A DNA stretch of 64,000 nucleotides from Pseudomonadota bacterium (GTDB taxonomy: Bacteria > Pseudomonadota > Gammaproteobacteria > Steroidobacterales > Steroidobacteraceae): assembly GCA_021785405.1 (NCBI GenBank), contig JAJYFF010000001.1:62001-126000 (forward strand), in the 5' to 3' direction. Below, in pieces: positions 28,685-40,132 of this stretch. Below the pieces are notes generated by a model, which did no database searches, was not told the origin of the DNA, and saw nothing but the letters and a program-made list of their open reading frames with translations. Position numbers and translations under genes: made by a program. Numbering within the stretch: position 1 is the stretch's first letter; every line of letters begins with the position of its first letter.

Positions 28685-30181
28685 TCATGAATTCGTGCCC
28701 AGCTGGATGGCGTTGCTCACGAGCTGATGCACGCTCACGATCGTCTCCATCGGGAACTCGTAATAGGGAAGCACCTTGCTGAACTGGCTCTTACAAATCG
28801 CGCAGATGGCCGCCATGTGCGTCACGCCGTGCTCCTGCTGCACCTCGCGCAGCGCCTGCATGCGCGGCAGCGCGCCCTTGACCCGCAGTTCCAACAGCTC
28901 ATCGGTCAGAAGGCCGCCGCCGCCGCCGCAGCAGAATGTCTTCTCGCCGATGGTTTCAGGCGCCATGTCGAAGAAGTGGTTGCAGCTCGCCTTGATCACC
29001 TCTCGCGGCAGCACGAACTGCCCGCCCGGCCTCGCGCCCATGCGCGTGGCCCGCGCCACGTTGCAGGAATCGTGAAAAGTAACCCTCATGTGATCGTTGG
29101 CTTCCCTGTCGAGCTTGATCGCGCCCCTCTCGATGAGATCGTGCGTGAATTCGATGATGTGCTGCGGCACGGGGTAGCGAGGATCCAGGAAATCGAAGGG
29201 CCCGGCGAGGGTGTTCCAGAAGCTGTAGGCCACGCGCCACGCATGGCCGCATTCCCCCACGACGATGCGCTTGACCTTCAGGTCGATGGCCGCCTTGCGG
29301 ATGCGTAGCGCCACCTTGCGCATCTGCTCGTAGTTGCCGATGAACAGGGCGAAGTTCGCTGCCTCGGACGCGTAGGAGCTCAATGTCCAGCTGATGCCTG
29401 CCTGATGGAAGACCTTCGCATAGCCGATCAGTCCGTCGATGTGCGGTTCGGCGAAGAAGTCGGCCGAGGGCGGGATCAGCAGGACCTCGGCGCCTTGCAC
29501 ATCGAGCGGGAAGCGCACATCGACGCCGGTGTCCTCCTTGACATCCTCTTCCAGGCCTTCGAGCGTGTTGGCGAGCGCCGGCGCAGGCAGGCCCAGGTTG
29601 TTGCCGATCGTGTGCACCTTGCCGAGAATCTCGTTGCAGTACTTCTGGCCGACGCCGATCTCATCCAGGATCTCGCGAGCCGCCATCGAGATCTCGGCCG
29701 TGTCGATGCCGTACGGGCAGAACACGGAGCAGCGCCGGCACTGCGAGCACTGATGAAAATAGCTGTACCATTCCTCGAGCACGCTTGGATCGAGGTCGCG
29801 CGCACCGACGAGCCTCGGAAAGAGCTTCCCCGCGAGCGTGAAATGGCGCCGGTAGATGCTGCGCAAGAGATCCTGCCGCGCCACCGGCATGTTCTTCGGA
29901 TCTCCCGTGCCGAGGAAGTAGTGACATTTGTCGGCGCAGGAGCCGCACTTGACGCATGCATCGAGATGGACGCGCAGCGATCGGTATTTGCTCAGCAGTT
30001 CCCCGAGCTTCGCGACGGCCCGCTCCTCCCAGTTCTCTACCAGCTCTCCCGGAAAGCCGAGCGCCTGCTGGTGCCGCGGCGCGGCCTTGAAGGGTGCGCT
30101 CTTAGCCATCACCCCCGGCTGAAGATCCGGAATCTCGAGATACTCCCCCACCGCGGGGACCTTGAATTCCACCTTCGCCAC
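28685..30181 (-). CDS. dsrK: DsrK, HdrD-like Fe-S protein
   Basis: CVKCGSCADKCHYFLGTGDPKNMPVARQDLLRS; CSQCRRCSVFCPYGIDTAEI; CCGGGGGLLTDE; GTG start. Confidence 0.95.
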   Translation of the reverse strand: MAKVEFKVPAVGEYLEIPDLQPGVMAKSAPFKAAPRHQQALGFPGELVENWEERAVAKLGELLSKYRSLRVHLDACVKCGSCADKCHYFLGTGDPKNMPVARQDLLRSIYRRHFTLAGKLFPRLVGARDLDPSVLEEWYSYFHQCSQCRRCSVFCPYGIDTAEISMAAREILDEIGVGQKYCNEILGKVHTIGNNLGLPAPALANTLEGLEEDVKEDTGVDVRFPLDVQGAEVLLIPPSADFFAEPHIDGLIGYAKVFHQAGISWTLSSYASEAANFALFIGNYEQMRKVALRIRKAAIDLKVKRIVVGECGHAWRVAYSFWNTLAGPFDFLDPRYPVPQHIIEFTHDLIERGAIKLDREANDHMRVTFHDSCNVARATRMGARPGGQFVLPREVIKASCNHFFDMAPETIGEKTFCCGGGGGLLTDELLELRVKGALPRMQALREVQQEHGVTHMAAICAICKSQFSKVLPYYEFPMETIVSVHQLVSNAIQLGTNS

Positions 30182-30182
30182 G

Positions 30183-30926
30183 CTAGACCTCGTCCCCGGC
30201 ACCCTCGAGCTGCGCCGCCCAGGGCGCCAGATGCCGCCGCTCGCGAGCATCATCTACTTGGTTGCGCGTCGGGCTGAAGAAGACCCCGGGCGCATGCAGC
30301 AGCTTGCTGAACGGGAATGCGATCAGCAGCGCCGCCACCATGCTCAAGTGCGCCAGCAGCAGGGGGCTGTCCGGCAGCGGCTGCCAGTCGAAATAAAGAA
30401 GCCCCAGAACAAAGGCCTTGAACGACACGATGTCGGTGTGATCGAGGAACTTGATCGCAAGCCCCGACAGACCAATGCCGAGCAGCAGCAGCAGCATCAG
30501 GTAATCCGACGGTTGGCTGATGTAGCGCACCCGCGCGATCAGGACACGGCGCCCGAGAAGCCCCAGCAGCCCCACCACCATCACCACGCCGCCATAGACG
30601 CCGAACGGCTGCACGAGCACCGTCCAGAACCAGATCGGCTGAATGAAATAGCGCAGGTGACGCACCACCTCGAGCAGCAGCCCCAGGTGGAACATGACCG
30701 CGAATATCCAGGTCCACTTGCTGGACTTGAACAGACTCTCGAACAACGCGACTTCGCGAGCCACTCGAAAGACCACGCCGGTGCGGGTCACCGGCGCTGG
30801 CATCGTCGGTATCTTCAGCGGCGCCGGCGTGCGCGCATACGTCAATACCCTGTACGAAACGCCGAGCCCGAACACTGCAGCCGCCCCGTACAGCAGGAGC
30901 GCGTATATCACGGTCATGATCGGCAT
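30183..30926 (-). CDS. dsrM: DsrM, NarI-like membrane cytochrome b subunit
   Basis: 247 aa membrane protein between dsrC and dsrK; FHLGLLLEVVRHLRYF, LLLAHLSMVAALLIAFPFSKLLHAPGVFFSPTRNQVD. Confidence 0.95.
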   Translation of the reverse strand: MPIMTVIYALLLYGAAAVFGLGVSYRVLTYARTPAPLKIPTMPAPVTRTGVVFRVAREVALFESLFKSSKWTWIFAVMFHLGLLLEVVRHLRYFIQPIWFWTVLVQPFGVYGGVVMVVGLLGLLGRRVLIARVRYISQPSDYLMLLLLLGIGLSGLAIKFLDHTDIVSFKAFVLGLLYFDWQPLPDSPLLLAHLSMVAALLIAFPFSKLLHAPGVFFSPTRNQVDDARERRHLAPWAAQLEGAGDEV

Positions 30927-31022
30927 CGAGCGCGCCCTCCCGGCCCCGGCACCGGGCACCGGCCCCTCCCGTCGCGCATCCGCCCCCGATGACCGGACCT
31001 CGCGGCGGCCGCTATCATGCAA

Positions 31023-31361
31023 TCAGATGCAGCCCGTCGGCTTCGGCAAACCGGCATAGCGGCAGGCCTGTTTGGCCGGACCATACGGAAAGAGCTCGTA
31101 CAGGTACTTGCTGTTTCCCTTCTCCGGGCCGAGCTTCTTGCCGATCGCCTTGGTGAGCACACGGATCGCCGGCGCCACCTGATACTCCGCGTAATACTCG
31201 CGCAGGAAATTGATCACTTCCCAGTGATTGCTCGTGAGCGCGATGTTGTCGTCCGCCGCCATGGTTCTCGCCACATCCTCATTCCAGTCGGCAAGGTTGA
31301 TCAGATAGCCCTCTTCATCGACCGCCACTTCCTTATCTTTCAGCGCCACTGCTGCAGTCAT
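31023..31361 (-). CDS. dsrC: DsrC, sulfur carrier protein
   Basis: C-terminal KQACRYAGLPKPTGCI with both conserved cysteines. Confidence 0.97.
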   Translation of the reverse strand: MTAAVALKDKEVAVDEEGYLINLADWNEDVARTMAADDNIALTSNHWEVINFLREYYAEYQVAPAIRVLTKAIGKKLGPEKGNSKYLYELFPYGPAKQACRYAGLPKPTGCI

Positions 31362-31421
31362 GTCTCTGCTCCCGATATGACGTTTACAAACCTCATCGCC
31401 ACCCGTATGGGCACTCGCATC

Positions 31422-31730
31422 TCACACCCAGGCCTGCACATGATGATGTTCGGCGACAAGGTCGACGAAACCGCCGTAATCGACCACCTCGATTCCTGCG
31501 ATTACCTCCTCGGGCGTGAAGCCACGCGCGGCGAGGTCCGGTCCAAGCACGTAGAGTCGCCTGTCCTTCGCTGCGTCGACGAGCTTCGCGTTCGCCTCGA
31601 TGGACTTCAGCGCGCCATAGACGGCATCCTCCAGCAGAAGGATGCTACAGCCCGGACGTGTAAGGCGAAGGCAGGACTCCAGATCCCGCGTCTGCAGCGG
31701 AGACTTGTTCGTCGTATGCAACACGGCCAT
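31422..31730 (-). CDS. dsrH: DsrH
   Basis: MAVLHTTNKSPLQTRDLESCLRLTRPGCSILLLEDAVYGAL. Confidence 0.93.
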   Translation of the reverse strand: MAVLHTTNKSPLQTRDLESCLRLTRPGCSILLLEDAVYGALKSIEANAKLVDAAKDRRLYVLGPDLAARGFTPEEVIAGIEVVDYGGFVDLVAEHHHVQAWV

Positions 31731-31742
31731 TTCGCGCTCCGG

Positions 31743-32138
31743 TCAAAAGCTCAGCACCACGTCCTGCTCGTCCATCAGTACGCTGAGCTCGGCGGAACCC
31801 AGCACGCGCACTGGCACGAGAAGGTCTTCAGGCGCGAGACCCCGCGCCTGCAGCGATTCGCGCTCCACGTAAAGCTTCTCGATGTCGTAATCACCCAGCG
31901 CCCGGTATGACGGGGAGAAATTCTTCTGGCCGATGCCCTTGGTCTGCTGGCCCTTCTTCAGCTGATAGACCCCATCATCCGCGAAGACCAGGGTCATGTC
32001 CTGATCAAAAGCCGCTCCAATCAGCACGACCTCCAGCGCCTCGAGCGCATAGATGGTTCCATAAGGCGCCTTGCGGTTGACGATCATGAAGCGCTTGACC
32101 TTGCGGTTCCCGCCTTCGTCTGCTTCCGTATCGCTCAT
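31743..32138 (-). CDS. dsrF: DsrF
   Basis: KRFMIVNRKAPYGTIYALEALEVVLIGAAFDQDMTLVFADDGVYQL. Confidence 0.93.
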   Translation of the reverse strand: MSDTEADEGGNRKVKRFMIVNRKAPYGTIYALEALEVVLIGAAFDQDMTLVFADDGVYQLKKGQQTKGIGQKNFSPSYRALGDYDIEKLYVERESLQARGLAPEDLLVPVRVLGSAELSVLMDEQDVVLSF

Positions 32139-32151
32139 TCTCGCCTCGAGT

Positions 32152-32511
32152 TCAGTCGCCAAAGACCACAAGCCGGTCGGCCTCGATGCCGGCCTGAATC
32201 AGTTGTCCGAGACCGGAGATGTTGAACCCCGGCGCGAGGATCTCGGCCTTGATGCCCCGGCGCAGCCCCGCCGCAACGCACACCACCATGTCGAGATGGT
32301 GCTTGGCCGCGAGCGCCGACCACTGCCGGGTGACGTTCCGGTCATCCTGGGGAGGTTCGGTGAGCTTGTTCGCGTTGTTCACGCCGTCGTTGTAGAAGAA
32401 CACACGATAGATCTCATGCCCCTTTGCCAAGGCCGCCACGGCGAACTGATAGGCAGAATCGGAGGCCTGATGCTGATATGGCCCCTCGTTCACGAGTATC
32501 CCGAACTTCAT
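32152..32511 (-). CDS. dsrE: DsrE, sulfurtransferase subunit
   Basis: MKFGILVNEGPYQHQASDSAYQFAVAALAKGHEIYRVFFYNDGVNNANKL; conserved Cys in DMVVCVAAGLRRGI. Confidence 0.95.
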   Translation of the reverse strand: MKFGILVNEGPYQHQASDSAYQFAVAALAKGHEIYRVFFYNDGVNNANKLTEPPQDDRNVTRQWSALAAKHHLDMVVCVAAGLRRGIKAEILAPGFNISGLGQLIQAGIEADRLVVFGD

Positions 32512-33611
32512 CGCCCGCTCCCGGTGCCCGCCGAAAGGCGGATATGCGCCGAGGCATTCAGGCTCCCGCGACCGCCGCGCCAGTTATCGATGTGATAGGG
32601 CGTGAACGGCAGACCGGTCAGCTCGAAGAAGCGCGGCCAGCCGATGCGCTCGATCCATTCTCCGATGCGCTCCCAGTCCCTGGCATCCTGCTGATAGGTG
32701 CGCAGGATCTTCTTCACCGCGGTCGCCACTTCCGGCCAGCGGGGCGGGTTGTTGGGCAGACCTGCCACGGCGAGTTTGTGGAACGTCGGGCGCGTGCGGG
32801 CATTGGAGTGCTTCCCGCCCACCCAGATCGCGATTTTGGTGTGCTCCGGATCATTGATCTGCATCGGCGGGCACGGCGGATAGCACGCTCCGCAGCAGAC
32901 ACATTTCGTCTCGTCGACTTCCAGCGTCGGCTTGCCGTTGACCACGGCCGGCCTGATGGCCGCCACCGGGCAGCGAGCCACGACCGCCGGGCGCTCGCAG
33001 ACATTGGCCACCAGATCGTGGTTGATCCGGGGCGGTTTGGTGTGCTGGATGTTGACCGCGATGTCGCCCTGGCCGCCGCAGTTGATTTCGCAGCAGGACG
33101 TGGTGATCCCAACTCGATTGGGCATGCGCTCGTTGGCGAACTCCTCGTGCAGTTCATCCATCAGCGCCTTGACCACCCCCGATGCGTCGGTGCCGGGGAT
33201 GTCGCAATGCAGCCAGCCCTGCGTATGGGAGATGGTCCGCACGGAGTTGCCGGTGCCGCCGACGGGAAACCCCGCCGCCCCAAGCGCCGCGATCAGCGCG
33301 GCAAGCTTGGTCTCCTCGCCGACGATGAACTCGATATTGCTGCGAATGGTGAAGCGTATGTAGCCGTCGGCGTACCTGTCGGCGATGTCGCAAAGCTTGC
33401 GGACCGTGAATACGTCCATCTGCCGCTGCGTTCCGGCGCGCACGGTCCACACATGATCGCCGCTCTCGGCGAGATGATGCAGCACGCCCGGACGGGGCCG
33501 TTCGTGCCACTTCCATTTGCCGTAGTTCTTCTTCAGGATCGGATGCATGAATTGAAACGCATCCGGAACGCCGCTCTCGACGGGCATGCGGGGCTTGGCG
33601 GGATCGCTCAT
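32508..33611 (-). CDS. dsrB: Dissimilatory (reverse) sulfite reductase beta subunit
   Basis: TTSCCEINCGGQGDIAVNIQHTKPP siroheme/Fe-S motif; CVCCGACYPPCPPM ferredoxin insert. Confidence 0.97.
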   Translation of the reverse strand: MSDPAKPRMPVESGVPDAFQFMHPILKKNYGKWKWHERPRPGVLHHLAESGDHVWTVRAGTQRQMDVFTVRKLCDIADRYADGYIRFTIRSNIEFIVGEETKLAALIAALGAAGFPVGGTGNSVRTISHTQGWLHCDIPGTDASGVVKALMDELHEEFANERMPNRVGITTSCCEINCGGQGDIAVNIQHTKPPRINHDLVANVCERPAVVARCPVAAIRPAVVNGKPTLEVDETKCVCCGACYPPCPPMQINDPEHTKIAIWVGGKHSNARTRPTFHKLAVAGLPNNPPRWPEVATAVKKILRTYQQDARDWERIGEWIERIGWPRFFELTGLPFTPYHIDNWRGGRGSLNASAHIRLSAGTGSGR

Positions 33612-34885
33612 GGCGCACCCCCGGTATCTTGAGCGCCTTGACGCGCATTCCATTTCGCGACTTCCTCCTCCCAGCCGTCGGTACGGACGTAGGGATTGGT
33701 GCGCGGATGCAGCACCATGCTCGGATCGGGTTCAAGACCGATCGCCTTGAGGAAGTTGGCGAAACCAATGCGTTCGATCATCTCGCCGGTACGCTCGTGC
33801 TCCAGCGCGTTCTCGGCGAAGAAGTCGATGATGTTCTGTGACAGTGCCTGCAGCTTCTCGAAGTCCTCGTCTGTTTCCAGCTTCATGAACGGCACGATCA
33901 CCGTGCCGAACAGGTCCCCGATCTTGAGCGTACGCTTGCCGCCGAGAAGGATGGTTACGCCGCGGTCCGTGCCGGGGCGCAGCGCCTTGGGCATGACGTT
34001 GATGCAATGCATGCAGCGCACACAGTTGCGGTTGTCGATTTCGATGGTGTCGTCATCCTTGAGCGACACGCAACGGGTCGGGCAACGCGTGACGACGTTG
34101 TCGATCACTGCCTGGCGAGTGCTCCCGGACACGTGCTTGCGCACCTCGTCCTGATCGATCCGGATATCGTCGCGCCACGTGCCGATCACCGCCATGTCGG
34201 CGCGTTGGATGGCGTTCATGCAGTCGTTCGGGCAGCCGGAGAACTTGAATTTGAACTTGTACGGCAGCGCCGGGCGATGCATGTCGTCCAGGAAGGCGTT
34301 GATGATCTGGGTGTGGGCGCGGATCTCGTCGTAGCAGGACTGCTCGCAACGCGCATGTCCCACGCAGGACATCGAGGTACGGACGGCCGGCCCGGCACCG
34401 CCGAGGTCGTACCCCAGCTCGTTCATCTCGTCGAAGCAGGGCTGAACGTTGCGGCTGCTGCAGCCCTGCAGCATGATGTCGCCGCTCTGCCCATGCAGGG
34501 CGATCAGGCCGGATCCGTACTTCTCCCACACGTCACAGATCTTGCGCAGCGCGTCGGTGGAGTAGTGCATGCCGGGCGCGGGCATGACGCGCAGCGTATG
34601 AAACTCCGCGGCCTCCGGAAACTCCGGCTTGCCGTCCTCGCCGCGCAGCTCCGTAAAGCGCGGGATGACACCGCCGCCGTAACCGATCACGCCCACGGTG
34701 CCGCCCTTCCAGTACCCACGCTTGGTTTCGTAGGACCGTTCGAGCTGCCCGAGCAGGTCTTTCATCATGCCGGCGTAGGGTTTGTCCTGCGCACCGGCCA
34801 GGCGCTTCAGGCCTGAGACGAAGCTCGGCCATGGACCGCCTTCAAGTTGGTCCAGCATTGGTGTTTCTGGTGTTTTCGGGCTCAT
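33608..34885 (-). CDS. dsrA: Dissimilatory (reverse) sulfite reductase alpha subunit
   Basis: CVGHARCEQSCYDE, FKFSGCPNDCMNAIQRADMAVIGTWRDDI, CVRCMHCINVMPKAL. Confidence 0.97.
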   Translation of the reverse strand: MSPKTPETPMLDQLEGGPWPSFVSGLKRLAGAQDKPYAGMMKDLLGQLERSYETKRGYWKGGTVGVIGYGGGVIPRFTELRGEDGKPEFPEAAEFHTLRVMPAPGMHYSTDALRKICDVWEKYGSGLIALHGQSGDIMLQGCSSRNVQPCFDEMNELGYDLGGAGPAVRTSMSCVGHARCEQSCYDEIRAHTQIINAFLDDMHRPALPYKFKFKFSGCPNDCMNAIQRADMAVIGTWRDDIRIDQDEVRKHVSGSTRQAVIDNVVTRCPTRCVSLKDDDTIEIDNRNCVRCMHCINVMPKALRPGTDRGVTILLGGKRTLKIGDLFGTVIVPFMKLETDEDFEKLQALSQNIIDFFAENALEHERTGEMIERIGFANFLKAIGLEPDPSMVLHPRTNPYVRTDGWEEEVAKWNARQGAQDTGGAP

Positions 34886-35040
34886 ACGGTTGCGTCGCAA
34901 GTTGTCGGTTCCGACCCTCTCGGGCTCCCGAAGCCATCCCCGCCGCACACGACACAGCGGGCCAGGGCACTCTGGAGAGAACTCTAGGCGCGCGCGGCGC
35001 TGCTCGGTATTGCGCAGACGGAATAGCCGGGCCTGCGGCG

Positions 35041-35067
35041 CGGTATCTCCTTTGGGATATATGCGGC
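35041..35067 (-). promoter_or_regulatory. Palindromic motif upstream of dsrA, shared with cysG upstream region
   Basis: Reading on minus: GCCGCATATATCCCAAAGGAGATACCG; compare GCCGATATGTTCCTTTGGAGATATACCG at 37267-37294. Confidence 0.5.
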
Positions 35068-35094: not shown

Positions 35095-35784
35095 ATGAGA
35101 TCGCGCTACTGGAGCGACGACGCGGAAGAGGCCGCGGACGCTGCCTGCACGGCAGCCGATCTGTCATTTGCGCTATCGGGCCGGACGATCCCCTTCGAGT
35201 ACCCTCGCGCCCTGTGCCTCGCGGCCACCAAGCTCCTGCCCTGGTTGCCATCGGTGCGCGCTGCCGGGTTGCGTCTCGCCCTCGGGGCCGAGTCGGCCAA
35301 CGGGTGGCAGCGTGACGAAAGTGACGGCGCGCTCATCTATCTTCCCAAACGCGCGCGGTTGGTATTGCGTCTGCCATTGGAGCGGATCGGCGACGGGCGC
35401 GTACTGGCCGGCAACACGCTGTGGATTGCCGACTGTCCGCTGCGGATTGGCCCGCCAACCGTCGTTTCGCTCTCGCCAGCCGAGACGCTCTATGCTCGGC
35501 ATGTCATCGATGAGACGCACGACGAGAGCCTCTTCCTCGACCGCGTTGCGCAGGCGATGCACTCTCTTGGGTTGGCGCGTCCAAAGCTCATGTGCGGCAA
35601 GAGCCGGTGGATCGCCACTCCGCAGGGCGCTCTGCGTACGCGTAGTGTGATGATCGCCTGCCTCGCCCCACGCGAGTCGTTCACCGTGTTGGCGAACGGC
35701 ATCGGCACCGGTCGGTTGCTGGGGTGCGGGCTGTTCGTGCCCTACAAGCGGTCCGCGTCGTACCCGCGCGGCGCTGAGGATTAA
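35095..35784 (+). CDS. Orphan Cas6/Cmx6-like RAMP endoribonuclease
   Basis: ADLSFALSGRTIPFEYPRALCLA...RARLVLRLPLERI...LAGNTLWIADCPLRIG...ETLYARHVIDE...GIGTGRLLGCGLFVPYK; C-terminal segment fits the Cas6 Gly-rich loop GhGxxxxxGhG exactly (GIG-TGRLL-GCG). Confidence 0.72.
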   Translation: MRSRYWSDDAEEAADAACTAADLSFALSGRTIPFEYPRALCLAATKLLPWLPSVRAAGLRLALGAESANGWQRDESDGALIYLPKRARLVLRLPLERIGDGRVLAGNTLWIADCPLRIGPPTVVSLSPAETLYARHVIDETHDESLFLDRVAQAMHSLGLARPKLMCGKSRWIATPQGALRTRSVMIACLAPRESFTVLANGIGTGRLLGCGLFVPYKRSASYPRGAED

Positions 35785-35787
35785 GAC

Positions 35788-37209
35788 CTATCCGACCGCT
35801 CTCACGGCGGTCTCCTCGGCGACGCCCGCCGGCTCAAACCAGGCGAAACGCTCGTGGAGCCTGACCACCTCGCCGATGATCAGCAGCGCAGGCGGGCGCA
35901 TCGCGCCCTCCGCGGCCTTTGCCGGCAAGCCCGCCAGATCACCGATCAACACGCGCTGGCTCTGCGTCGTGCCGTCCTGAACCAGCGCGGCAGGCGTTGC
36001 GGCCGGCAGACCCGCCTCGATCAGCCGCCTGCAGATCGGCTCGAGCGTGTGCAGGCCCATGTAGATTACAAGGGTCTGACGAGGCTGGGCCAGTGCGTTC
36101 CAATCGAGATCACCCCCGTCTTTGAGATGTCCCGGAACGAACACGCAGCTGTGAGCGAAATCGCGATGGGTCAGCGGAATGCCCGCGTAGGCCGCGCAGC
36201 CCGATGCCGCCGTAATGCCCGGCACGACCTGAAACGGAATGCCCTCTGCGGCCAGCGCATCGGCTTCCTCGCCCCCACGGCCGAAGATGAAAGGATCGCC
36301 ACCCTTGAGGCGCAGCACGCGTCTACCCTCGCGCGCAAGTCGAACCAGGATTGCGTTGATCTCCTCCTGCGTCAGGCAGTGCTCGCCACACGCCTTACCG
36401 ACATAGATGCGCTCGGCGCCACGGTGCGCCAAATCGACAATCGCCGGCGCCACCAGCCGGTCGTACACCACGACATCGGCCTGCTGCATCAGGCGCAGGG
36501 CCCGGAAGGTGAGCAGGTCAGGATCGCCGGGACCGGCGCCCACCAGATACACCTCCCCGACCGAAAGCGACGAGGGCGTATGCTGCTGCAGCGCGACCTC
36601 GATGGCGCATTTGGCCGCCCGCTCCCGACCCGCCAGCATCATCTCGGCGGCAGGCCCGTGCAGCACCTCTTCCCAGAAGCGGCGGCGCTGCGCCGCGCTC
36701 TTGAATCGGCGCTTGACACGCTTGCGCAAGCCCTGCGCCAGCGTCGCGAGCCTGCCATAGGTCGCCGGCAGCATCGTCTCGAGTTTCGTGCGCAGCATGC
36801 GCGAGAGAACCGGCGAGGCGCCGCCCGATGAGACTGCCACGATCACTGGCGACCGATCGACGATGGACGGCACGATGAAGCTGCAAAGCTCGGGCGCATC
36901 GACCACATTGACCGCAATTGTGCGCTCACGACACAGCCTGGAGACCTCGCTGTTGACACCCGGGTCGTCCGTCGCGGCGATGACCAGAGCGCAATCCTCG
37001 ATATCGCTGGCGCGAAACGTGCGCGCGCGGTGACTGAGTTTTCCCTCAGCGCGATAGCGCGCGAGGCTTCTGCCGAGCTCGGGTGCCACCACCGTGACGG
37101 CGGCGTTCGCCCGCATCAGCAGCTCCGCCTTGCGCGCAGCCACCTCGCCACCGCCTACCACGAGGCAGGAGCGCGAGCGGACATCGAGAAACACCGGCAA
37201 GAAATCCAT
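35788..37209 (-). CDS. cysG: Siroheme synthase (precorrin-2 dehydrogenase/ferrochelatase + uroporphyrinogen-III methyltransferase)
   Basis: MDFLPVFLDVRSRSCLVVGGGEVAARKAELLMRANAAVTVVAPEL; VYLVGAGPGDPDLLTFRALRLMQQADVVVYDRLV; LRLKGGDPFIFGRGGEEADALAAEGIPFQVVPGITAA. Confidence 0.96.
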   Translation of the reverse strand: MDFLPVFLDVRSRSCLVVGGGEVAARKAELLMRANAAVTVVAPELGRSLARYRAEGKLSHRARTFRASDIEDCALVIAATDDPGVNSEVSRLCRERTIAVNVVDAPELCSFIVPSIVDRSPVIVAVSSGGASPVLSRMLRTKLETMLPATYGRLATLAQGLRKRVKRRFKSAAQRRRFWEEVLHGPAAEMMLAGRERAAKCAIEVALQQHTPSSLSVGEVYLVGAGPGDPDLLTFRALRLMQQADVVVYDRLVAPAIVDLAHRGAERIYVGKACGEHCLTQEEINAILVRLAREGRRVLRLKGGDPFIFGRGGEEADALAAEGIPFQVVPGITAASGCAAYAGIPLTHRDFAHSCVFVPGHLKDGGDLDWNALAQPRQTLVIYMGLHTLEPICRRLIEAGLPAATPAALVQDGTTQSQRVLIGDLAGLPAKAAEGAMRPPALLIIGEVVRLHERFAWFEPAGVAEETAVRAVG

Positions 37210-37266: not shown

Positions 37267-37294
37267 CGGTATATCTCCAAAGGAACATATCGGC
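37267..37294 (-). promoter_or_regulatory. Palindromic motif upstream of cysG, shared with dsrA upstream region
   Basis: Reading on minus: GCCGATATGTTCCTTTGGAGATATACCG, about 58 bp upstream of cysG ATG. Confidence 0.5.
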
Positions 37295-37329
37295 TCGCCA
37301 ATGGGGATAAATCGGGTCCTACGTCACAC

Positions 37330-38075
37330 CCTGCGCGCCGAGCCGACTGGCGAGGCGTCACCGTGTCGTCTGCAATGGCTTTCCCAGACATAGGGCACCC
37401 AGCTGGCCGTCGATGCTGAAGGGTGCCCAGCGCGATTCGCTGGCGTGGTGCCGTCGCGGGATCGGTGCACGCGAGCTGCGCTGTAATAGAGTCTGACAGC
37501 GTCGAGCTTCCGGTGCAGATCGATCGAATTCCAGAAGAACGTGCGATCGAGGAATTCGCGCCGGATCGTCCCGATCGGTCGTTCGACGAAAGGGTGCGAC
37601 ATCGGGGCATACGGTGCCGGGCCGTCGATGTACTCGCCGCCGACGCCAAAGCCGACGATACGCCGCGTGAAAACATCGATGACCCCAAGGACTCAATGGC
37701 TGCGAAGCAGGATGGACTCGCAACGACACTGGTCCACGCTCCAGAGGCTGTCCTTGGTTTGCGCGATGAAGGTGAGCCAGGAGGGGCCGGAAGCGCCTGG
37801 ATGTTCCGGGCAATAGTGTTTTGCGAGCACCCGGCGGACGACATCCTTATCATTCGGCACGCAGTATGCGTGCGAGATCTGCTCGGCAATGCGTTGATTC
37901 CCGAATCGGGGGTTGCGGCGCTTCATCTCGAGGATGGAGGCGACGATTTACTGCGTCGGGCTCCCGTGGACGAGAACAGGCGCCGATATTTTCGATCGAG
38001 CAGCTCGTCGAGCCAGGCGATCAGGGAGACCAATCAGCACAAGACTGCTCGTATGCGGGGTCCCACGCCATGATC
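37330..38075 (-). pseudogene. Frameshifted/deleted integrase-core (rve) transposase remnant
   Basis: Fragments in different minus frames: NPRFGNQRIAEQISHAYCVPNDKDVVRRVLAKHY...PSWLTFIAQTKDSLWSVD and SHPFVERPIGTIRREFLDRTFFWNSIDLHRKLDAVRLYYSAARVHRSRDGTTPA. Confidence 0.7.
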
Positions 38076-38129: not shown

Positions 38130-39845
38130 TCAAGAGGCGAGGCCGATCCTCTTCAAGATCTGACGAAACCTCGGCGTTGCGCGTACGCGATCGAACCTGC
38201 GGTCTGCTTTCAGAATGACCAAGAAGAAGTCGCGTTCCTGGCAGGCCTTCTCGAGCGACTCAAGTGCCTCTGCCTCGTTGCCTAGTCCCAGGCAGGTGAG
38301 CGCGGCATCCACGTGGCACGGACTGCGACGCGCGGGATCCCGCAAGTTGCGGAGAACGCGATGGGCATCTGCAGTCCTCCTGGCCGTTCCGTAGGCATAG
38401 CCGAGAGCTCCCTGCGCCAGCGGCGCGCTCGCCGCTCCGCGGCATGCGCCCTCGAGCACGACAATCGCTTCGTCCAGTCTGCCTTGTTGTCCGAGCGCCA
38501 TCCCCATCGCCAAGTGTGCGCGCAGCGATTGCGGATCCATCACCAAAGCTTGGCGCGCTACTCGGATGGCGGCGTCGGATCGGCCGCACAGGTAAAGCAC
38601 CCCGGCGAGGTTGGCGCAGATGCTCGGCGAATGAGGCTCGAGCCGCTGCGCCTTCCTGGCCTCCCCGATCCCCTCGCGGAATCGCCCCAGCTCCGCGAGA
38701 AGCAAGCCGTACCACTGATGCGTTGTCGCGTGATCGGGCTCAAACTCCAGAATGGTCCTGAACTGCCGCTCTGCGCCCGCCCAATCCCAATCGTAGTGCC
38801 ACCGGACAAAAGCCAGCGCGCTGCGTGCTTCGATCAGTGTTTCGTCCAACTCGATGGCATTCACGGCGGCGACTTTGGCTTTGGGCATCAGACGGCAGGC
38901 CGGGAGCGGCGCCAGCATGGGAAGCAAGGCATAGCTCGCGGCTATTCCGGAATGTGCCGGAGCGTACCCCGGGTCGAGCCGAATCGCCTGCTCGAAGTAT
39001 CGGATCGCCCGGCGGAGTCCGCTTTCCGAGCGCTTGTTCCAGTGATATCGGCCCTGAAGATAACGCTGGTAGGCCTCGGGGCTTTCGGCATACCTCCGTG
39101 AAAGCAGCTTGCGTTGCTGGGCGCCGAACAGCAGCGCCAGCGCTCCCGCTACCTGCTCGGCAACGGAATCCTCAAACTCCAAGAGCTCGGAACGCTTGCC
39201 GTCGAACGACTCCGCCCAAACCAGCGCCCCCGTCTTGGCGTCGAGCAACTGGGCGGTGACCCGCACGCGCCCACCCCACGCCTGCACCTTTCCGCCGAGC
39301 GCGAAAGCTGCAGTGAGCTGGCGCCCTCGACCGAGCGCGCTTCCCCGCGTTCGTGCGGACGGCGAGGCCGTTGCGTTGGGCCGCAACGTGCACTCGCGGA
39401 GAGTGACGACCTTGGTAGTCAGCGCGTCTGTGATGCGCATACCGACTGATTTGTCGGCAAAACTGTTTCCCAGCAACTTGAAGGGCAGGACCACGAGCGA
39501 TTTCTCGCCTCCGATTTTTTCCGGCGGCACCGGCTCCACGGGAGCGGCTAACCGGTAGCCACGTTTCGGAACCGTCTCGATGTAGTGCCTCCCGTCCCGA
39601 AATCCTCCCAGGACTTTCCGCAAATCGGAGACGTGGCGGGCGATGCTGCCCTCTTCAACGAAGCTGCCGGCCCAGACTTCGTCGAGAATGTCCTGCTTGC
39701 TCACGACGGCGCCCTGGCCTCGCGCCAGGACTCGGAGGATTTCGAACGCCTTCGGGGTCAGAGGGACGCGTTCGACCCCGCGGAGCAGAACGCCGGACTC
39801 CGGACCGAGAAGGTATGGGCCGAATCGCAACGATGCCTGCCGCAC
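38130..39845 (-). CDS. Winged-helix (OmpR/CadC-type) DNA-binding protein with TPR repeats
   Basis: LRFGPYLLGPESGVLLRGVERVPLTPKAFEILRVLARGQGAVVSKQDILDEVWAGSFVEEGSIARHVSDLRKVLG; C-terminal TPR; GTG start assumed. Confidence 0.85.
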   Translation of the reverse strand: MRQASLRFGPYLLGPESGVLLRGVERVPLTPKAFEILRVLARGQGAVVSKQDILDEVWAGSFVEEGSIARHVSDLRKVLGGFRDGRHYIETVPKRGYRLAAPVEPVPPEKIGGEKSLVVLPFKLLGNSFADKSVGMRITDALTTKVVTLRECTLRPNATASPSARTRGSALGRGRQLTAAFALGGKVQAWGGRVRVTAQLLDAKTGALVWAESFDGKRSELLEFEDSVAEQVAGALALLFGAQQRKLLSRRYAESPEAYQRYLQGRYHWNKRSESGLRRAIRYFEQAIRLDPGYAPAHSGIAASYALLPMLAPLPACRLMPKAKVAAVNAIELDETLIEARSALAFVRWHYDWDWAGAERQFRTILEFEPDHATTHQWYGLLLAELGRFREGIGEARKAQRLEPHSPSICANLAGVLYLCGRSDAAIRVARQALVMDPQSLRAHLAMGMALGQQGRLDEAIVVLEGACRGAASAPLAQGALGYAYGTARRTADAHRVLRNLRDPARRSPCHVDAALTCLGLGNEAEALESLEKACQERDFFLVILKADRRFDRVRATPRFRQILKRIGLAS

Positions 39846-40132
39846 CGCCGTCTCCCGGAAAAGGTAAGAATTCTGTAAGGACTTCCGGCCGGGCTGTCTG
39901 GTAGAAATCCTGGCACAGAACGGCCGGGGGCAAAAGTGAATTCTCACGCGCCGGGGCGAGTGTGGACTGTGTCCAGCATCAGCCTGGAAAAAAGGGCCTA
40001 CCCCAGATTCCTAGTGGCATTGTTCATCAAAATCAAGCTCTTGATTATGCGCGTAGTCCACGACCCGAAGCCGACGGCCGGCCCGACATGGGCATTTGGT
40101 AACTCCGAAGAACCAATCGCAGGAGGTGCAAC

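Follow-up and report, generated by a model that had tools for sequence, protein, structure and literature searches.

A non-CRISPR Cas6 homologue inherited together with the reverse Dsr pathway of sulfur oxidation

Throughout one bacterial class, a clade of non-CRISPR Cas6 homologues is co-inherited with the reverse Dsr (rDsr) pathway. We regard these dsr-linked proteins as a new, non-CRISPR variant within the Cas6 family. As a CRISPR-less protein of this family adjoins dsr in nearly all sulfur oxidisers of the class, a CRISPR-type component seems to have been recruited into energy metabolism. The rDsr pathway is a major route of sulfur oxidation, used by free-living as well as symbiotic bacteria, and is under study in genetic model strains. 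In the open-licence literature, we found neither a description of a dsr-linked Cas6 nor any link between Cas6 and dsr. The analysis started from a stretch of DNA of 64,000 nucleotides, referred to as the window, which contains the following genes.

28685–33653, minus strand: remaining rDsr operon genes within the window (dsrB, E, F, H, C, M and a DsrK-like gene)
33608–34885, minus strand: dsrA, divergent partner of the cas6-like gene
35095–35784, plus strand: cas6-like gene, 229 aa, member of the dsr-linked PF09559 clade
35788–37209, minus strand: cysG, siroheme synthase, convergent; adjoins cas6 in the window's genus

A Cas6 family gene without a CRISPR setting

The cas6-like gene is separated from the start codon of dsrA (34885) by 209 bp, and its stop codon is 3 bp from that of the convergent cysG gene, exactly as the original prediction had described. 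The statement that no transposon ends lie nearby needs a footnote, as a transposase core remnant (rve_3, PF13683) is present upstream of cysG (37324–37602, minus strand). The start codon at 35095 is backed by relatives which align from residue 1. A longer frame of 317 aa starting at 34831 was rejected: relatives give it no support, and it would overlap dsrA and the putative operator described below.

The 229-aa protein belongs to the Cas6 family. It matches the Pfam model PF09559 over its whole length (residues 22–218, E-value 5.4e-44, 150.9 bits at a cut-off of 26.7 bits), and a sequence search of the PDB identified 8fcj_B, the Cas6 protein of a type I-B CRISPR-associated transposon (CAST), with an E-value of 2e-8. 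When the AlphaFold model (pLDDT 87) was compared with the PDB by Foldseek, the top matches were all Cas6 proteins, and the double ferredoxin-like Cas6 fold is present. The closest solved structure is that of CAST type I-B Cas6 (8fcu and 8fcj, TM 0.76 and 0.81, 25% identity), followed by Pyrococcus furiosus Cas6. The sequence and structure matches together make the assignment right, so that the Cas6-like nature of the reading frame, for which a fold comparison had been proposed, was borne out. The translation ends in NGIGTGRLLGCGLFVPYKRSASYPRGAED; its Gly-rich loop is GIGTGRLLGCGLF, and the loop glycines are near-invariant among 100 relatives.

The more specific resemblance to Cmx6, the Cas6 of CRISPR type I-MYXAN, stood only in part. 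It agrees with the PF09559 match and the Gly-rich loop, but the window copy reaches 87.9 bits with the NCBIfam model TIGR02807 (cas6_cmx6), below the model cut-off of 98.85. All three dsr-linked relatives tested score above it (105–129 bits), and TIGR02807 would thus name them 'type I-MYXAN Cas6/Cmx6'. Since both TIGR02807 and PF09559 match the non-CRISPR clade, annotations will report a type I-MYXAN Cas6 where there is no such system, and CRISPR gene counts obtained with either model are inflated in sulfur oxidisers.

The setting of type I-MYXAN genes (cas3, cas8, cas7, cas5, cas1 and a CRISPR array) is not that of the window gene. CAST type I-B Cas6 belongs, as a subunit, to a Cascade guided by crRNA, whereas no Cascade gene is found near the window gene. 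We searched the genome from which the window derives (2.92 Mb in 133 contigs, 96% complete) for PF09559, Cas1, DevR/Cas7 and Cas3. It contains a single PF09559 gene; Cas1 and DevR/Cas7 were not found, and the Cas3 search gave only helicase matches below the cut-off. Repeat arrays were absent from the window, as originally predicted, and from 34 dsr-linked loci (447 kb) when analysed with a script that detected arrays in six of six control plasmids. As a contrast, loci L018 and L020 hold genuine CRISPR operons, which comprise cas3, cas8, cas7 and more cas-like genes, and a CRISPR setting is also found in loci L163–L174.

Co-inheritance with the reverse Dsr pathway

To survey the gene across genomes, 387 genomes were drawn evenly from the window's class, which, judging by its members, most probably corresponds to the Gammaproteobacteria of GTDB. 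DsrA hits were counted if E < 1e-30, a limit that excludes assimilatory sulfite reductases. PF09559 occurs in 121 genomes, almost always as a single copy, and DsrA in 123. Both are present in 115 genomes and both absent from 258, while six have only PF09559 and eight only DsrA (odds ratio 618; Fisher P = 4e-80, a value which overstates the case because related genomes are not independent). The 115 genomes span about 60 families. The tie to sulfur oxidation rather than to CRISPR that had been proposed for the window gene is therefore no local accident.

Where both genes are on the same contig, they are divergent in 84 of 86 pairs, with gaps of 0.3–4.5 kb. Several of the exceptions to co-occurrence are contig ends: in four of the eight genomes with DsrA only (G131, G141, G173, G278), dsrA is less than 0.7 kb from the upstream contig end, and in G190, which has cas6 only, the contig stops inside dsrQ, a TauD-like gene dealt with below. 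Among relatives in public genomes, most keep dsrA divergently upstream, with DsrA identities of 65–100%; those with kept synteny include gammaproteobacterial, Ferrovaceae and Sideroxydans MAGs. Two near relatives with the same synteny (L014, L008) have record titles that say Alphaproteobacteria, a label that may be wrong. In a phylum-wide sample, PF09559 was found in none of 44 genomes from outside the class with DsrA above the cut-off.

Genomes of only 1.0–1.6 Mb retain the cas6-like gene, even where it is unlinked from dsrA. In two small genomes the unlinked gene (L096:8779-9441 and L097:7666-8379) lies beside apparent rnc (RNase III) and era genes.

We aligned 100 non-redundant dsr-linked PF09559 proteins with nine CRISPR-linked ones. 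The two sets separate in the tree with bootstrap values of 99–100, the CRISPR side being represented by just these nine members. The tree is unrooted and thus gives no direction of evolution, which the term 'domesticated' implies.

These data bear on the view that the gene encodes an ordinary displaced crRNA nuclease serving a CRISPR system elsewhere in the genome, as its naming by TIGR02807 would suggest. Cas1 is present in 54 of the 121 genomes with PF09559 and in 85 of the 266 without it, a weak association that is no stronger than that between Cas1 and DsrA. As the gene thus tracks DsrA and not Cas1, belongs to a clade separate from CRISPR-linked Cas6, and is the only copy in a genome devoid of detectable Cas1, DevR/Cas7 and above-cut-off Cas3, we consider this view highly improbable.

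The gene, present in 115 of the 123 rDsr genomes of the class, appears to have gone unremarked so far, probably because annotation pipelines call it a CRISPR protein.

The dsrA promoter palindrome and candidate RNA targets

The intergenic region between dsrA and the cas6-like gene contains a palindrome that is found throughout the class. The elements seen in the window are listed below.

34981–34987, minus strand: putative −10-like box of dsrA by sequence pattern, CTAGAGT (class consensus CTAGACT)
35008–35025: degenerate second element TATTGCGCAGACGGAATA on the dsrA side, about 34 bp away from the first, a spacing that relatives retain
35044–35061: palindrome TATCTCCTTTGGGATATA, window copy of the class-wide TATCCC-N4-GGGATA; putative operator in the divergent dsrA/cas6 promoter region
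37272–37289: second operator-like palindrome TATCTCCAAAGGAACATA, upstream of cysG

At two or fewer mismatches, the window has three matches to the pattern (0.01 expected), two of which are the two strands of the site at 35044. The element was found at the same stringency in 67 of 81 divergent intergenic regions, compared with about 0.8 expected from shuffles, and perfect copies occur close to once per genome. In 20 DsrA genomes from outside the class, the best match has 3–5 mismatches. A degenerate copy lies 31–34 bp nearer to dsrA, followed by the CTAGACT (TAGACT) box at a near-fixed distance. When cas6 and dsrA are apart, the element remains with dsrA. Extra copies precede a DsrC-like gene (L196) and a TusA/cytochrome/flavocytochrome c-like cluster (L228), these genes having been named by eye from sequence. 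TATCCC-N4-GGGATA is likely to be the operator of a sulfur-oxidation regulator, and as such offers a concrete handle on dsr gene regulation. At 38130–39947 (minus strand), the window also codes for a 605-aa protein that combines an OmpR-type DNA-binding domain (PF00486) with TPR repeats, a possible regulator.

The cas6-like protein might itself be a transcriptional co-regulator which acts via this element at the dsrA promoter. Palindrome and gene share a broad distribution, as the counts within and outside the class illustrate. However, the protein also occurs in several genomes in which no element could be recognised (L019, L021, L089, L105, L106, G160), the element follows dsrA when the genes are apart, and it resembles what an ordinary dimeric DNA-binding regulator would recognise. 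We regard such a role as unlikely.

Repeats of type I-MYXAN fold as GAUGCC-N4-GGCGUU, much like UAUCCC-N4-GGGAUA, and this makes it tempting to see in the palindrome a Cas6 substrate. This candidate was rejected. Substitutions, counted by eye, are about equal in the two arms and show no one-strand G-U bias; the degenerate copy on the dsrA side and the near-fixed TAGACT box speak against it, as do the persistence of the element beside dsrA when cas6 is elsewhere and its occurrence before other sulfur genes.

A defined repeat sequence or hairpin is what Cas6 enzymes usually recognise. A structured dsrA leader was rejected as a target: the leaders have a mean z of −0.75 and no hairpin motif in common. 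No common hairpin was found on the dsrQ side or in the dsrA–dsrB spacers either, and for the window's own intergenic region the covariation term is merely −0.18 kcal/mol, so that RNA structure there was dismissed as well. Strong hairpins occur at the same place, with differing sequences, in the dsrA–dsrB spacer (L056–L087 and others) and in the dsrC–dsrM spacer (L085, L086, L087, L093, L101). The dsrH–dsrC, dsrC–dsrM and dsrA–dsrB hairpins were nevertheless discarded as targets, being variable in sequence and, in the case of dsrA–dsrB, absent from the window's genus, where this spacer of 17–26 nt is too short to hold one.

The original prediction had suggested that the protein processes the dsr polycistronic mRNA or a small RNA. 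For a nuclease acting on dsr mRNA, the strong spacer hairpins of many genomes could be cited, as could the finding that dsrEFH and dsrC transcripts exceed those of dsrA in Allochromatium vinosum (Grimm et al., 2010, as cited in PMC3397948). These hairpins differ from genome to genome, which does not fit the usual targets of Cas6 enzymes, and the only strongly conserved palindrome stays with dsrA rather than with cas6 when the genes are apart. In addition, the acidity of most members and the loss of CRISPR-invariant Lys and Arg, described below, tell against processing, and the window copy lacks the His residues that are conserved in 84 of 100 relatives. Our data support processing neither of dsr mRNA nor of a small RNA; for dsr mRNA it is a possible activity that we judge improbable.

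Residue conservation, gene neighbourhood and possible function

With type I-MYXAN Cas6 (Cmx6; TIGR02807, PF09559), the dsr-linked proteins share the full-length Pfam family, the fold, the Gly-rich loop and several individual residues. R90 is present in 100 of 100 dsr-linked and nine of nine CRISPR-linked proteins, R133 in 92 of 100 and nine of nine, and His at alignment column 37 in 89 of 100 and eight of nine, respectively. The glycines and the Cys of the loop are retained. The CAST protein has Asn at column 37, so the His there may not be the catalyst. A second His, at column 61, is characteristic of the dsr-linked set, being present in 84 of 100. In the window's genus, column 37 is mostly occupied by Tyr and column 61 by Arg; the window copy has Tyr at column 37, as do most of its near relatives.

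Apart from the missing array and cas genes, their own clade and, for the window copy, the low TIGR02807 score, the dsr-linked proteins differ from type I-MYXAN Cas6 in the following respects. They have lost the Lys of column 149 and the Arg of column 210, both invariant in the nine CRISPR proteins, and have gained the family-specific W48, W69 and a Cys-Gly pair at columns 191–192 (Cys in 70 and Gly in 99 of 100). A function as sulfur carrier through the Cys-Gly motif was rejected, as the Cys is present in 70 of 100 only. Most members are acidic, with a median pI of 6.0 and a net charge of −4, in contrast to the basic CRISPR-linked Cas6 (pI 9.3–9.8, charge +6 to +12). The window copy, with a pI of 9.0, is basic, unlike most dsr-linked members. 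In the window's genus the gene is under purifying selection (dN/dS 0.13–0.31), which is looser than for dsrA (0.06–0.11).

We lean, with reserve, towards the protein being an accessory of rDsr, probably regulatory, that binds RNA and in most species possibly cleaves it. It would keep the nucleic-acid pocket of Cas6, with the Gly-rich loop and the invariant Arg, to accommodate a narrower RNA ligand of the cell. In species with the conserved His residues, which are the majority, the protein may still cleave this RNA, while in the window's genus it more likely binds without cleavage. It would thereby adjust dsr expression or sulfur flux, perhaps jointly with the DsrC paralogue described below. 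This reading is favoured by the Cas6 fold, the linkage to dsrA, the lack of a comparable dependence on Cas1, the retention in small genomes, the separate clade, the purifying selection and the pocket residues, whose conservation speaks for nucleic acid as the ligand. Against it stand the acidity of most members, the loss of the CRISPR-invariant Lys and Arg, the lack of a common hairpin and the operation of rDsr without the protein in the 44 DsrA genomes from outside the class.

In relatives, the common gene order is dsrA, divergent from a TauD-like gene, which is followed by a 236-aa protein (in some cases), the cas6-like gene and a DsrC paralogue; a PKHD-type hydroxylase and two uncharacterised proteins are often close to this module. 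Downstream, the cas6-like gene usually has a DsrC-family gene as its neighbour. The adjoining paralogue is a member of the DsrC/TusE family (PF04358) which ends in RKGGY and lacks the C-terminal cysteines of DsrC. DsrC paralogues of this kind may be regulatory. A TauD-like gene upstream of dsr has been named dsrQ (Lenk et al., 2012, as cited in PMC7596348). In the present loci, the gene of the TauD family that is divergent from dsrA agrees with that account, and the cluster to which the cas6-like gene belongs begins with it; the dsrQ passages of PMC7596348 name no Cas6-like gene behind it. The window's genus has a reduced module, with the cas6-like gene directly between dsrA and cysG. There, dsrQ was not found in a search run without a positive control, and the DsrC search gave canonical DsrC only and no paralogue.

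The acidic pI of most members argues instead for a protein partner. The double ferredoxin-like fold would then have been reused in an adaptor that binds the DsrC paralogue or another sulfur-relay protein, and no nucleic acid. The lost Lys and Arg and the usual DsrC-family neighbour agree with such an adaptor, as do L019 and L021, where the DsrC paralogue and a TusA-TusA fusion are directly downstream of the cas6-like gene. Yet conservation of the Gly-rich loop, R90 and R133 equals that in CRISPR Cas6, and the window's genus keeps the protein while showing neither paralogue nor dsrQ. We take this role to be a serious if rather unlikely alternative. In order of preference, we thus place an RNA-directed accessory before a protein adaptor, followed by a co-regulator at the operator, processing of dsr mRNA and, last, a CRISPR function.

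It is quite conceivable, if conjectural, that rDsr of the class (most likely Gammaproteobacteria) comes with a Cas6-type protein of its own, which binds or cleaves RNA, and with a dedicated palindromic operator. If true, this would place a Cas homologue in core energy metabolism and add an overlooked layer of control to sulfur oxidation in some 60 families. The gene would also stand as a clear example of a Cas6 homologue at work outside CRISPR, for which a single phenotype, in dsr function, can be predicted.

The 236-aa protein of the module (L095:7891-8598) has no Pfam or NCBIfam match. Another uncharacterised protein of about 190 aa, without a Pfam match, recurs near the module in several loci (L021:11519-12115, L092:6913-7479, L102:7980-8540 and L098:3377-4030).
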